Source: Candidatus Mcinerneyibacteriota bacterium (lineage in GTDB: Bacteria; AUK180; JAQVHJ01). Taken from it: a DNA stretch of 6,181 nt. Position 1 is the first letter of the stretch. Each line of letters begins with the position of its first letter. Below, in pieces: positions 3-6,038 of this stretch. The position numbers and the translations under genes are program-made. Location of the stretch: positions 1 through 6,181 of the forward strand of contig DAOVMD010000199.1 in assembly GCA_030630935.1 (NCBI GenBank). The letters are read 5' to 3'. Under the pieces are notes generated by a model. It made no database searches, had not been told where the DNA came from, and saw only the letters and a program-made list of their open reading frames with translations.

Positions 3-650
3 TATGATGCAAGCGGTAACACGATACAACGAGATTATTTCAGAAATAAGGACGAGATATTTGAACAGGAGCTTTATGAATATAACTATGACAACATGAT
101 GACACATTATGTAAGGCATAAACCCGTTATGAAGAATAATCGGATTGAGATGGAAGTAGAGTCTGAACTAAACATGAAATATGATGTTAATGGAATGAGA
201 GTTCTTAAAGAATGCTGGCCTAATACATATGATTCGACTATTTATATATATGAAGGAGGAGCAGTTGTCTTGGAAATGAGCTATGAACAGATCCCGAAGG
301 GTAAGCATCTGTTTACTTATGCCGGTGGAAAGAAAGTCAGCCGAACCAGTTTCAAGGAAGATGGAGCCATTGATCTTGATTCGATAAAGTATTTTCATCA
401 GAATTTCATGGGTTCTATTGAAATGATTACTGATAAAAACGGCAACATAGAGGAACATAATAAATACGAACCGTTTGGGGATATTATTTGGTCGAAGAGT
501 TACATAGATACAAATAACAAGTACAAGTTCACAGGAAAAGAAAGGGACAAAGAAAGTAATCTGGATTACTTCAATGCACGTTACCTGGATACGAAGTTGG
601 GGAGGTTTATGAAAGCTGATATGGTGATAGGGAATATTAAGAATCCGCAA
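3..650 (+). repeat. RHS core direct repeat, copy 1
   Basis: This stretch aligns without any gap to 2208-2855 at a constant offset of 2205 bases. In translation 191 of 216 residues match (counted by eye). Homology stops abruptly after CCGCAA at 650, a few codons before the DPSG motif. The copy could serve as an arm for recombination that swaps toxin tips. Confidence 0.9.
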
Positions 651-1463
651 TCACTAAATAGGTGGGTATATTGTTATAATAATCCGATAAAGTATGTGGA
701 TCCTAGTGGGAATGTTGTTAGAAAGCATCAGCACACAGGCGGTTCCGGAGGAATGATTACATCAGTTAATGATACACTTGAAACTCAATCCACTTCAGGT
801 AATAATAGTATAGATTATTCAACTCCTGGAGGAGGTATAAATAGCAAAGCGGGAGAAGCTCAAAAACCTAAAGAAGAAAATATCAAAGAAGAACTAAAGG
901 AACAATTTTTTAAATCAATTGAACATCTTAAGAAAATAGGTATGGATAACCAAGCTAAACAGTTTGAAGCATTATTTGAGGAAGGGAGAATCGTATTTCA
1001 TAGTTCGGGTACAGATAGAGCAAAATTCGTGTGTTTATCATTACCTTTTACAAATATACGAATAACTAAAGGAAAAATACATATATATCCTGGCTTTCTC
1101 ATTCCTCTTTTTCATAAAAATAAAATTTTTACTAGCTTGAGATTTAGACCAAGAGTTTCTGCAAATATATTACTACATGAACTAGGCCATTTAAATGGAA
1201 TACATTCTGAAAAGATTACATGGTATCATGAGTGGGATAGAACAACAAAATTAAGAATAGGAAAAGATTTACCAGAAGATATATTAGAAAGACGAGAAAT
1301 AATAGAAACTGAAGTTAACTATGTAAATGAATTATATGAAGGATTATTTAAAACTTCTGAAATTATTAAAAAAGAGTTAAGAGATAAGGATAGTCCATAT
1401 ATAGGTCGTGGATTAGATCCAAAGGAAGGAAGACTATATCCTAACCATTGGTATGAGGAGTAA
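3..1463 (+). CDS. RHS repeat-associated core protein with C-terminal metalloprotease-like toxin (5' partial)
   Basis: The frame is open from the left edge, so the ATG at 96 is internal and this is the last 486 residues of a larger RHS protein. Residues 1-237 are RHS core: YD-type repeat remnants (YEYNYDN), then YEPFGD, FTGKERDKESNLDYFNARYL, LGRFMKAD, NPQSLNRW, NNPIKYVDPSG. This is the typical end of the RHS-associated core, which in known proteins closes a shell around the toxin. After DPSG (699-710) comes a Gly/Ser/Thr-rich linker (about residues 240-290), then a unique domain to the stop. That domain has HELGH at residues 392-396 (1176-1190), the zinc-binding HExxH of zincin proteases; a glutamate-rich helix near residues 432-443 could supply a third ligand. 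I infer a secreted peptidase toxin whose target is unknown. The gene behind it is the likely immunity gene. The RHS assignment is firm; the protease activity is inferred from one motif. Confidence 0.9.
   Translation, partial: YDASGNTIQRDYFRNKDEIFEQELYEYNYDNMMTHYVRHKPVMKNNRIEMEVESELNMKYDVNGMRVLKECWPNTYDSTIYIYEGGAVVLEMSYEQIPKGKHLFTYAGGKKVSRTSFKEDGAIDLDSIKYFHQNFMGSIEMITDKNGNIEEHNKYEPFGDIIWSKSYIDTNNKYKFTGKERDKESNLDYFNARYLDTKLGRFMKADMVIGNIKNPQSLNRWVYCYNNPIKYVDPSGNVVRKHQHTGGSGGMITSVNDTLETQSTSGNNSIDYSTPGGGINSKAGEAQKPKEENIKEELKEQFFKSIEHLKKIGMDNQAKQFEALFEEGRIVFHSSGTDRAKFVCLSLPFTNIRITKGKIHIYPGFLIPLFHKNKIFTSLRFRPRVSANILLHELGHLNGIHSEKITWYHEWDRTTKLRIGKDLPEDILERREIIETEVNYVNELYEGLFKTSEIIKKELRDKDSPYIGRGLDPKEGRLYPNHWYEE
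1455..1460 (+). promoter_or_regulatory. Shine-Dalgarno site of the 1469 gene
   Basis: GAGGAG lies 8 bases before the ATG at 1469 and inside the last codons of the toxin gene. It supports this start and implies co-transcription of toxin and immunity gene. It is the clearest ribosome binding site in the window. Confidence 0.7.
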
Positions 1464-1468
1464 TAGTT

Positions 1469-2128
1469 ATGAAAAATAATTTTAAAAAATATTTATTAGT
1501 ACTATGTTTTTTATTTACATTATATATAATATATTTACAAATACAAACATCAAATGATTTGATCCACATAGCAAAATATCTTAATAAAAACAAATCTCTT
1601 TATTTATTAAATAATCATTCCACTGTGAGAGATTTAAATTTATTAATTATAAACCACTGGGCTGCTTTTAAAGGAGAAAGATATCCTAAAAATGTGTCAG
1701 ATATTATTAATCACTTTAAAATAGAAGATAAGAATATTTTTAAATCTAATTTTAGGAAGATTTATTTTAAATTTTTAATAAATACTAAAAATGATAAAGA
1801 TCCATTTAATGACGAAATAATTATTTATGATCCTGATTCAATTTTTGTTTTTGAGAATTATTATATTTGTTATATTTGTTCTACAAATAAGGGATGGGAC
1901 TGGGAGAATATCAGAAATAGAAATAAAAATATATATAATTATCCAAAATATTTTCATATTAAGAAAGCATTATTTCATATTAATTTTTATTTAAAACTTA
2001 ATAAAAAAAATATTATATTTTATTTTAAAAAATATTTAAAATATTTTTTTCTTATTATTGTATTTTTTTCCTTGGTTTATTGGATTATTATTTATTTTGA
2101 GGAGAAAAATTATAAAGATAATTTATGA
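1469..2128 (+). CDS. Putative membrane-anchored immunity protein for the first RHS toxin
   Basis: This 219-residue protein is not a family I recognise. It has a Lys-rich N-terminus followed by a hydrophobic segment at about residues 8-24, a mostly polar middle of about 165 residues, and a second hydrophobic segment at about 192-210 followed by a short charged tail. With the N-terminus inside, both ends would be cytoplasmic and the middle would face the periplasm. It starts 5 bases after the toxin stop with a good GAGGAG site, the usual place for an RHS immunity gene, and that position is the main evidence for function. A protein that meets the toxin in the periplasm or at the membrane would fit. 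The segment DPFNDEIIIYDPDS loosely recalls the DP...Y region of pseudopilin-like domains, which is a weak resemblance only. Base composition is far more AT-rich than the RHS core. Its stop codon is made from bases of the next RHS copy. Confidence 0.75.
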   Translation: MKNNFKKYLLVLCFLFTLYIIYLQIQTSNDLIHIAKYLNKNKSLYLLNNHSTVRDLNLLIINHWAAFKGERYPKNVSDIINHFKIEDKNIFKSNFRKIYFKFLINTKNDKDPFNDEIIIYDPDSIFVFENYYICYICSTNKGWDWENIRNRNKNIYNYPKYFHIKKALFHINFYLKLNKKNIIFYFKKYLKYFFLIIVFFSLVYWIIIYFEEKNYKDNL

Positions 2129-3653
2129 GTATGATGACGGTTCCAACAGATTAAATCGAGTTAATTTTAATAGGGAGAATGATGATTTGAGTTATATGCT
2201 GATTAATTATGATACGAATGGCAATACAATTCAGAGAGATTATTTTCGGAATAAAAACGAGATATTCGAACAGGAGCTTTATGAATATAACTATGACAAT
2301 ATGATGATACGTTATGTAAGACACAAACCCGTTATGAAGAATAATCGGATTGAAATGGAAATAGAGTCGGAACTCAACATGAAATACGATGTCAACGGTA
2401 TGAGAGTAATTAAAGAATGTTATCCCAATACAGGTGATTCAACTATATATATCTACGAGGGCGGTGAAGTTGTTTTGGAGATGACATACGAACAGGTCCC
2501 GAAGAATAAACATTTGTTCACGTATTCAGGAGGGAAAAAAGTAAGTCGAACCAGTTTCAAGGAAGATGGAACAATTGATCTTGATTCAAGAAAGTACTTC
2601 CATCAGAATTTCCTTGGAAGTATTGCCATGATCACCGACAAGGATGGCAACACAGAAGAACACAATAAGTACGAACCATTCGGGGATATTATCTGGAGTA
2701 AATCATACATTAATACAGATAACAATTATAAGTTCACAGGTAAGGAGAGAGACAAAGAAAGTAATCTTGACTATTTTAATGCACGTTATTTAGATACTAA
2801 ATTGGGGAGGTTTATGAAGGCTGATGTAGTAACCGGAAATATTAAAAATCCGCAAGATTTAAATATATATATATATGTTACAAATAATCCTTTAAAATTC
2901 ATTGATAAGAATGGAAATTGGAGAGTAGATCAACATGGAAATCCAGTATTTACTGATTCAAGGATTGCAAATACAATTGAAATGGCTTCTTTTGCTTTAC
3001 CAGTTCCCGGTTTAGCAGCTGGTCTTGGATGGGGATATTCTTATATTTCAGGAGATCGTTATAATTATATAAATCAATTTATTACGGATGGAGGAGTTGA
3101 TTTAATTGGTACTTTAATGTGTCAACATCCAAGAATTGCTAACAAAGGTTCAAAAGTTTTGAAAAATATTGGTCAATATTTTGGAGGACAAGCACTATCA
3201 CAACTTTTATCTCCTTCTGAAGGTCCGAATTATCCTCAACTATCTGATCTACAAAAAGATGATACACTTAGAAATATAGTTCAAGAAAGGTTTAATGGTT
3301 TAGATATTAAGCTTACGGAGAAACTGGGTGTAATATTTCGTTTAACATTAAAAGACGAATATGAAGTCGTAACTAATGGTGGAGTTTTTTCAACTCCATT
3401 AATTACTTCTTATGATAAACGGGAATATTTGAATGCTGTTCAACGAATCTTTGGTTATAAATTATATTACCTATCTCCCGAAACAATAAGTGAAAAATTA
3501 GATATATATTTAGATGATTTTAATCCTAAGGGAAATCCTCCTGATAAGTTGAAAGACATATGGGATGATCTTAGGATAATATGGGATGTTGAAACAAATT
3601 ACACAATTCAAGCAGAAAAAGCATATAGAGCATCAGGGCAAGTTGAATGGTGA
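2058..3653 (+). CDS. Orphan RHS core fragment with an unrecognised C-terminal toxin tip
   Basis: RHS homology starts at about 2124 (YEYDDGSNRL, a YD-repeat) and continues through YEPFGD, FTGKERDKESNLDYFNARYL and LGRFMKAD to NPQ at 2855. The large N-terminal part of an RHS protein is absent. The frame is open from 2040, but the residues before 2124 are read out of frame from the neighbouring gene, and 2058 is a TTG without a ribosome binding site; in-frame ATGs at 2196 and 2301 also lack good sites. I see this as a displaced tip, silent or poorly translated unless recombined. The usual DPxG is replaced by DKNG (2904-2915). The tip, about 244 residues, has a hydrophobic Gly-rich stretch near 2982-3053 (LPVPGLAAGLGWGY), like the pre-toxin segments of other polymorphic toxins, then a polar domain of about 150 residues ending in QVEW. 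No catalytic motif was recognised. It overlaps the following gene by 7 bases. Confidence 0.8.
   Translation: MYFFPWFIGLLFILRRKIIKIIYEYDDGSNRLNRVNFNRENDDLSYMLINYDTNGNTIQRDYFRNKNEIFEQELYEYNYDNMMIRYVRHKPVMKNNRIEMEIESELNMKYDVNGMRVIKECYPNTGDSTIYIYEGGEVVLEMTYEQVPKNKHLFTYSGGKKVSRTSFKEDGTIDLDSRKYFHQNFLGSIAMITDKDGNTEEHNKYEPFGDIIWSKSYINTDNNYKFTGKERDKESNLDYFNARYLDTKLGRFMKADVVTGNIKNPQDLNIYIYVTNNPLKFIDKNGNWRVDQHGNPVFTDSRIANTIEMASFALPVPGLAAGLGWGYSYISGDRYNYINQFITDGGVDLIGTLMCQHPRIANKGSKVLKNIGQYFGGQALSQLLSPSEGPNYPQLSDLQKDDTLRNIVQERFNGLDIKLTEKLGVIFRLTLKDEYEVVTNGGVFSTPLITSYDKREYLNAVQRIFGYKLYYLSPETISEKLDIYLDDFNPKGNPPDKLKDIWDDLRIIWDVETNYTIQAEKAYRASGQVEW
2208..2855 (+). repeat. RHS core direct repeat, copy 2
   Basis: This is the partner of 3-650 without insertions or deletions. 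Many base differences are silent: in one 60-base stretch compared by eye (181-240 with 2386-2445), 47 bases match, yet over the whole repeat only 25 of 216 residues differ. The 84 bases before it (2124-2207) are also RHS-like and should match sequence just left of the window. Confidence 0.9.
3635..3638 (+). promoter_or_regulatory. Weak Shine-Dalgarno site of the 3647 gene
   Basis: AGGG lies 8 bases before the ATG at 3647. The site is weak, but the start overlaps the previous stop (ATGGTGA), so translational coupling to the RHS tip probably helps. GTG at 3650 is an in-frame alternative. Confidence 0.4.
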
Positions 3654-4944: not shown

Positions 4945-5442
4945 ATGTCGATCAGTTGTACTACTCCTGTTATGTTTCAGCGAATATTAACCTGTGAATG
5001 TACAGATAATAAAATTATGTACCCGGATTCTTCAGATATTTCATTTACTTCACCTGACGGCGGAGTACATCAATTTGAGAACCTTCATTTAAAAGAAAAA
5101 GATGGTGTTCTTTATTATACAGGATATACAGTTGACAGCACATATTTTAATATTGAATTTAAGAAGGACGATTTTGAGATAAAAGAGAATACTGATGATA
5201 GAAAAATGATATTCCCGAGACAGGCCTATCTTTATTTCCCCAAAAATGACGAGAGTAAAATAGCAATTTATACAAAAGACGGTACAATGTTTGAAGCTTT
5301 TCCAAACCGAAAACAGACGATATACGATACTCAGAGTATTACAGTAGAGAATTATTCAGACTGGACAGATGTCCAGGTTGAAGTACTGCAAGCAGCTGTT
5401 GCTTCTTGCTATTATTATGAAACGCTTAAATCAAAGAAATAA
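4945..5442 (+). CDS. Hypothetical protein, probable lipoprotein missing its signal peptide (5' truncated)
   Basis: The 165-residue frame starts MSISCTTP. ISC followed by TT is what a lipobox and first mature residues look like, but the hydrophobic region that should precede it is absent. The frame is closed by TAA at 4936 and no ribosome binding site precedes the ATG. The simplest explanation is that a full lipoprotein gene lost its first codons when the AT-rich cassette to its left was joined, with the ATG arising by chance; a cytosolic protein starting here is less likely. The rest is mostly predicted beta strand with many charged residues (LKEKDGVLYYTGYTVD, FKKDDFEI, KIAIYTKDGTMFEAF) and ends in a short helix (VQVEVLQAAVASCYYYETL). 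Base composition is closer to the RHS core than to the 3647 gene, fitting a resident gene. Function unknown. It may be untranslated. Confidence 0.6.
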   Translation: MSISCTTPVMFQRILTCECTDNKIMYPDSSDISFTSPDGGVHQFENLHLKEKDGVLYYTGYTVDSTYFNIEFKKDDFEIKENTDDRKMIFPRQAYLYFPKNDESKIAIYTKDGTMFEAFPNRKQTIYDTQSITVENYSDWTDVQVEVLQAAVASCYYYETLKSKK

Positions 5443-5479: not shown

Positions 5480-5584
5480 AGCAATTTATTGCTCATATAT
5501 CTCGTAGCCCCGGGTTTTAACCCGGGTATTGAATCCCACACAAACAAAGGGACTTCAGTCCCTTTACGGTTAACTTCGTTAACC
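5480..5584 (+). repeat. Hairpin cluster A
   Basis: Four tight hairpins lie in 105 bases: AGCAAT/ATTGCT (5480-5493), CCCGGGT/ACCCGGG (5509-5526), AAAGGGAC/GTCCCTTT (5546-5565) and GGTTAAC/GTTAACC (5568-5584). Loops are only 2-4 bases, often TTC or TTCA. The third has three T after the stem, so it could weakly end transcription from the 4945 gene, but the row of unrelated stems with small loops suggests a mobile palindromic element rather than a single terminator. The block GTAGCCCCGGGTTT at its centre reappears inverted in cluster B. Confidence 0.65.
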
Positions 5585-5961: not shown

Positions 5962-6038
5962 CCCCGGGTTTAAACCCGGGGCTACTATCAATTGTCCTTA
6001 CAGGACATAATGAAACAGATACCATGCAGCTTCGCTGC
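5962..6038 (-). repeat. Hairpin cluster B, inverted relative to cluster A
   Basis: This cluster contains the perfect 20-base palindrome CCCCGGGTTTAAACCCGGGG (5962-5981), then TGTCCT/AGGACA (5993-6007, loop TAC) and GCAGC/GCTGC (6026-6038, loop TTC). Read on the - strand it starts GTAGCCCCGGGTTT, the same as cluster A at 5505-5518 on the + strand. The two clusters therefore face each other about 440 bases apart. Confidence 0.6.

Follow-up and report, generated by a model that had tools for sequence, protein, structure and literature searches.

A probable array of displaced RHS tips and partner genes in a Candidatus Mcinerneyibacteriota genome

The window analysed here is an entire contig of 6181 bases (C164) of a genome assembly of 3.16 Mb in 471 contigs (G000; 80%-complete) from an uncultured bacterium. 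It is very probably part of an RHS (YD-repeat) polymorphic-toxin array with displaced units, each of which consists of a core end, a variable tip, and a partner gene. As listed in Table 1, two RHS core ends lie on the same strand, each followed by a different tip and a different downstream gene, which is the arrangement that characterizes such an array. The first-pass annotation, made from the letters alone, had recognized correctly what this is, an array of displaced RHS tips, and in related species the modules do change places. Repeated cores with unrelated tips and partners in an array architecture were found in four genomes.

Table 1. Features of the 6181-base window
Feature	Position	Strand	Remarks
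RHS-associated core copy 1 (core 1)	3..704	+	234 codons visible; contig start truncates the gene
Tip 1, variable C-terminal region with HELGH (HExxH) motif	705..1463	+	within ORF 3-1463
ORF219, partner (presumed immunity) gene 1, 219 aa	1469..2128	+	no family match
RHS-associated core copy 2 (core 2), displaced core end, 263 codons	2121..2909	+	TIGR03696; homology boundary
Tip 2, variable C-terminal region	2910..3653	+	no family match above threshold
ORF426, partner (presumed immunity) gene 2, 426 aa	3647..4927	+	
165-aa fragment like the N-terminal region of a full RHS protein	4945..5442	+	tblastn, blastn

The two cores (window 3-704 and 2208-2909) align without gaps and in one frame over 702 nt at an offset of 2205 bases, with 79.1% nucleotide identity and 199 of 234 amino acids identical (85%). 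Just past the core end the identity is about 32%, i.e., none; tip 1 is unrelated to tip 2, and ORF219 to ORF426. The alignment therefore agrees with the earlier claim of a gapless repeat followed by differing tips and downstream genes, and only the size had to be corrected, from 216 to 234 shared codons. Core 2 reaches about 29 codons further upstream than core 1, to about position 2121, and its start overlaps the ORF219 stop codon (2126-2128). Both copies match the NCBIfam RHS-associated core model TIGR03696 (70.5 bits for core 1 and 68.7 bits for core 2; cut-off 32.5).

Is core 2 a copy of core 1? The amino-acid identity of core 1 is 84-86% to core 2 and to the cores of two other RHS genes of the same genome (C102 and C156), and core 2 shows 80-81% nucleotide and 86-87% amino-acid identity to those two cores. 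Core 2 is hence as distant from core 1 as from other loci. For the pair of core 1 and core 2, dN is 0.10 and dS is about 2.4 (silent sites saturated), giving an omega of about 0.04; the omega values for core 2 are about 0.04-0.07. A simple or recent duplication of core 1 was ruled out by the saturated dS and the equal distance to all copies, and recent gene conversion between the two cores was ruled out by sliding windows. A similar divergence was seen in the array of a related genome (G001), whose cores are 79-83% identical.

For tip 1, ORF219, tip 2, and ORF426, no Pfam or NCBIfam family was found above threshold, and the tips have no relative in the PDB, in plasmids, or in viral contigs. 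Among 386 genomes, tip 1 has zero relatives, and tip 2 has one weak 88-residue match (G075), which was discarded as a chance match at a locus without RHS context. The suggestion that both effector pairs may be undescribed holds within these collections. Each tip occurs once in the G000 assembly. ORF426 has BamB-like matches, all of them sub-threshold, and AlphaFold2 predictions from single sequences were poor and uninformative (pLDDT 47 for tip 1 and 32 for tip 2). The HELGH motif of tip 1, read by eye, is possibly that of a zinc metallopeptidase. ORF219 has hydrophobic segments at its N-terminal and C-terminal ends and a G+C content of 17%. ORF426 (18% G+C) has an N-terminal signal-like segment and overlaps the end of tip 2 by 7 bases.

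The 165-aa fragment behind ORF426 resembles residues 135-236 (approximately) of the C156 RHS protein (tblastn, 37% over about 100 residues, 72 bits), and a blastn match of 91% over 261 bases was found at C156 9502-9761; a DUF5033 match is sub-threshold. The C156 locus (L041 9437-9761) likewise ends in a gene resembling an RHS N-terminus, and at both loci this gene may be what is left of another RHS gene. Rfam and tRNA scans gave no matches in the array itself, and the counts of promoters and terminators are those of shuffled sequences. Further downstream, the palindrome GTAGCCCCGGGTTTTAACCCGGG is present as an inverted pair (window 5504-5526 and 5963-5985), and an Rfam match to the Acido-Lenti-1 RNA (RF01687; 5962-6007) lies on one of its copies. 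The palindrome looks like a dispersed REP-like element; eight copies with at most one mismatch were found in the genome and none of the reversed control pattern.

It had been stated that only the first core is continuous with an upstream RHS protein. This could not be upheld, as the first base of the contig already lies inside core 1 and nothing upstream is visible. The same core is found in three further RHS genes of the genome, each of which has a tip and a downstream gene of its own. The C102 gene (1610 aa) is open at the start of its contig. Those of C156 (1885 aa) and C427 (1842 aa) are complete, begin with a signal-like segment, contain RHS repeats that pass the Pfam cut-off, and are preceded by a TPR/YfiO-like gene; PF05593 and TIGR01643 are above cut-off in the full-length copies, and DUF6531 is sub-threshold in C156 and C427. 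On C102, the RHS gene with its tip is followed by a WG-repeat partner and then by a second shell piece, which is displaced and runs for 592 codons until the contig end cuts it off. This 3′ end is about 107 bases short of the point matching the start of C164, and the piece is the only RHS shell in the assembly left open at the matching place. Since the only matching unfinished copy is itself displaced, core 1 may be displaced too, with C164 continuing C102; the alternative is an unbinned RHS gene upstream of core 1. As for the other tips of this genome, the C156 tip (L041 6713-7381) contains the motifs YFGHG and GYGC, which to the eye resemble those of caspases, and the C102 tip (L040 4095-4835) may be of the same kind; neither has a family match.

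Core matches were found in 29 of the 98 genomes searched. In G001, a member of the same family, one contig (JAQVHJ010000125.1, isolate STE_202) has a long RHS gene followed by two displaced cores. In G002 and G003, of the same class, arrays of up to seven displaced units were mapped, some of them headed by a full-length RHS gene (G002 C71, G002 C86, and G003 C16), with seven units behind the full gene in G002 C86 and four in G002 C71. Most of the seven core units behind the RHS gene of G002 C86 (L050 808-17715) have a tip and a membrane or exported partner. The displaced units begin 36-822 codons before the core end, with apparent clusters at about 110-156 and 229-253 codons. Most of them have no start codon with a ribosome-binding site near the boundary, and a few (G001c, G002 C86.2, and G002 C86.5) begin at an ATG just past the partner stop codon.

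One tip-partner pair, here called X, was found attached in one species and displaced in a congener. In G003 it belongs to a 1715-aa RHS gene (contig C16), and in G002 it lies on a displaced core on contig C5 that begins at codon -240 and comes immediately after a different tip-partner pair. Between the two genomes the nucleotide identity is 96.5% for the tip, 93% for the partner, and 74% for the core; along the sequence it ranges over about 0.5-0.9 in the core, climbs some 20-70 bases ahead of the core end, and is about 0.95 in the tip and the partner. The attached RHS genes G002 C18 and G003 C16 share about 92% identity over the shell, which falls off sharply about where the displaced X unit begins. 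These profiles, with their breakpoints in the core, thus indicate that cassettes of core end, tip, and partner were exchanged, as in the model of Jackson et al., and that this pair has moved between attached and displaced positions. A historical tip-partner swap in the relatives is therefore supported by these comparisons; it would have come about by an insertion in G002 or by a deletion in G003. The C71.4/5 and C159.4/5 pairs are further cases of a tip and a partner travelling together. Two G002 arrays (L052 565-960 and L044 4980-5375) have in common a partner 3′ end and displaced-core junction with up to 100% identity but not the adjoining core and tip, and so form another mosaic.

These observations can be put together as follows. 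A long secreted RHS shell would bear one variable tip at its C-terminus, and further tips, each with its partner and a piece of core ahead of it, would stand in tandem downstream, displaced and mostly without start codons. The core end, tip, and partner would move as one cassette. An incoming cassette may recombine into the shared core, so that the full gene would acquire a new tip and its previous core end, tip, and partner would be pushed one place downstream. In the window, core 2, tip 2, and ORF426 would be such a displaced unit behind the unit of core 1, tip 1, and ORF219. In this scheme the tips are presumably toxins and the partners immunity proteins acting in the envelope, and the displaced tips would be silent until recombined; the direction of displacement is likewise a presumption. 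Against this reading it can be said that neither tip nor partner of the window falls in a named family, that the cores of the window are too diverged for the simple displacement of one locus's own core, and that silent relics would before long lose the intact frames and the purifying selection that are described below.

A recombination between core 1 and core 2 would delete the segment 651-2855, as had been proposed, and the arithmetic of this proposal is correct; the cores have the same orientation and frame and align without gaps. It is nevertheless improbable that they form a ready-made switch that routinely deletes tip 1 and ORF219 and fuses tip 2 to the shell. A precedent for such a fusion exists in Salmonella, where it involved 522 bp at 95% identity (Koskiniemi et al., 2014; PMC3967940), but the present cores are only 79% identical and their longest common exact runs are 32, 29, and 24 nt, so that frequent switching is weakly supported. 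No recombined form was found in the G000 assembly, and C102 and C156 are equally close to core 2, leaving no trace of an exchange between core 1 and core 2. Moreover, core 1 may itself be unattached. Tips 1 and 2 themselves were found at no other place among the 386 genomes. An artefact of assembly or binning as the source of the tandem order would be suggested by the fragmented metagenome assembly and by a contig that begins in a repeated segment. This was rejected as extremely improbable, since the copies are 21% different and have no more than about 15 identical bases in common at the junction, and since the same architecture exists in independent genomes of another genus and another family.

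Are the displaced units small expressed genes, consisting of a core end and a tip with internal or coupled starts and kept by selection? The codon changes private to core 2 are 4 nonsynonymous and 20 synonymous, whereas random changes would give 4.5:1 the other way. This ratio is like that of the other copies (3 vs 25 for the displaced G001 cores), and protein relative-rate tests showed no acceleration in core 2. Of the 29 displaced units listed, 25 have a frame open to the tip or the contig end despite saturated synonymous sites (where measured), and the units mentioned above with an ATG just past the partner stop codon would also fit. Purifying selection is thus recorded in the displaced cores, as judged from these codon changes, and it follows from the private changes that coding constraint acted on the core during most of the time since it separated, whether it was then attached in a donor or already in its present place. 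The expressed-gene explanation is possible but not the favoured one, as the selection signal could date from the time when each core was attached in its donor. The boundaries are scattered, and in most units no start with a ribosome-binding site lies close to them. For core 2, no in-frame ATG or GTG exists near 2121, and its candidate starts are TTG 2058 and TTG 2097, neither with a ribosome-binding site, and TTG 2187, preceded by GGAG; between the ORF219 stop codon and TTG 2187 there is no in-frame start of the required kind.

It was found that all 35 genes directly behind RHS tips in G000-G003 encode a signal-like or transmembrane segment, several with a lipobox. In contrast, among control ORFs of comparable length (101 from G000 and G002), such a segment was found in 40 (Fisher p = 9e-12); one hydropathy rule was used for partners and controls, and some partners are homologous, so the independent cases are somewhat fewer. 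Partner genes go down to 17-20% G+C in a genome of 33%, the C156 partner (28%) being an exception. The C102 partner (L040 4843-6423) has WG repeats (PF14903) and the C156 partner (L041 7468-9345) has 14 LVIVD repeats (PF08309; beta-propeller), both unusual for an immunity protein. Omp85 is present in these genomes, and the lineage therefore appears to be double-membraned. The T6SS sheath gene VipB/TssC (PF05943) was absent from G000-G003, two of which are only 72-80% complete, and was detected in an E. coli control. The most economical reading would place the action of the tips in or across the envelope, with the partners protecting at that site. As immunity proteins elsewhere are mostly soluble, the all-envelope set may be peculiar to the lineage. 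One could also regard the partners as surface partners (anchors or receptors) of an exported tip rather than as immunity proteins. The uniform signal-like or membrane segments and the two repeat proteins would agree with this, but the partners are as diverse as the tips and move with them (X, C71.4/5, and C159.4/5), as immunity genes do, and such a role is unlikely. It may be tentatively proposed that the RHS shells exit by a signal-sequence route, that the tips act in the envelope, and that the arrays are a maintained library under coding selection and not decaying relics.

Compared with Bacillus WapA, these genomes differ in that they carry Omp85 and that their partners are exported or lie in the membrane, whereas the WapA immunity proteins that are known reside in the cytosol. 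The order of a YD-repeat shell with a signal sequence, a variable tip, and then an immunity gene is nevertheless like that of WapA, which is Sec-exported (Koskiniemi et al., 2014). Displaced ("dissociated" or "orphan") rhs tips have been described in Enterobacteriaceae (Jackson et al., 2009, PMC2935791; Koskiniemi et al., 2014), and the arrays of the present lineage resemble them in many respects. In both, core fragments of variable size, most of them without a start, are each joined to an unrelated tip and a downstream gene and follow one another behind a full rhs gene (here in G002 and G003), the tip-partner region has a low G+C content (reported for the enterobacterial tips in PMC2935791), and the same tip is attached in one genome and displaced in another, as with X. 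Unlike the near-identical enterobacterial cores, however, the two cores of this contig are only 79% identical (dS about 2.4) and as far from each other as from other loci. Here the frames are mostly intact and all partners are envelope proteins, unlike in the enterobacterial orphans, and, unlike in enterobacterial rhs systems, no T6SS sheath gene was found and C156 and C427 have signal-like N-termini. Cassette arrays, an adjacent partner gene, and a tip replacement that brings its partner are also features of polymorphic toxin loci that have standalone toxin-immunity cassettes (Zhang et al., 2012, PMC3482391), although tips 1 and 2 match no Pfam or NCBIfam toxin domain. The displaced C-terminal cassettes follow the logic of the CDI (cdiA) and MafB orphan cassettes, while the shell is of the RHS/YD-repeat kind and not of the two-partner secretion or Maf kind.

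In summary, this kind of array is already known from enterobacteria, and what is new is the all-envelope partner set in a lineage without a detectable T6SS. What stands out is that the displaced cores are both diverged and constrained as coding sequence, and that the partners are without exception envelope proteins. The range of displaced RHS tips is thereby extended from enterobacteria to a little-known, apparently double-membraned lineage, in which one tip-partner cassette sits on a full gene in one species and on a displaced core in a congener. The coding selection in the displaced cores bears on whether orphan tips are silent, and the all-envelope partners would predict a family of envelope-acting toxins, two of which, those of the window, have no known domain.
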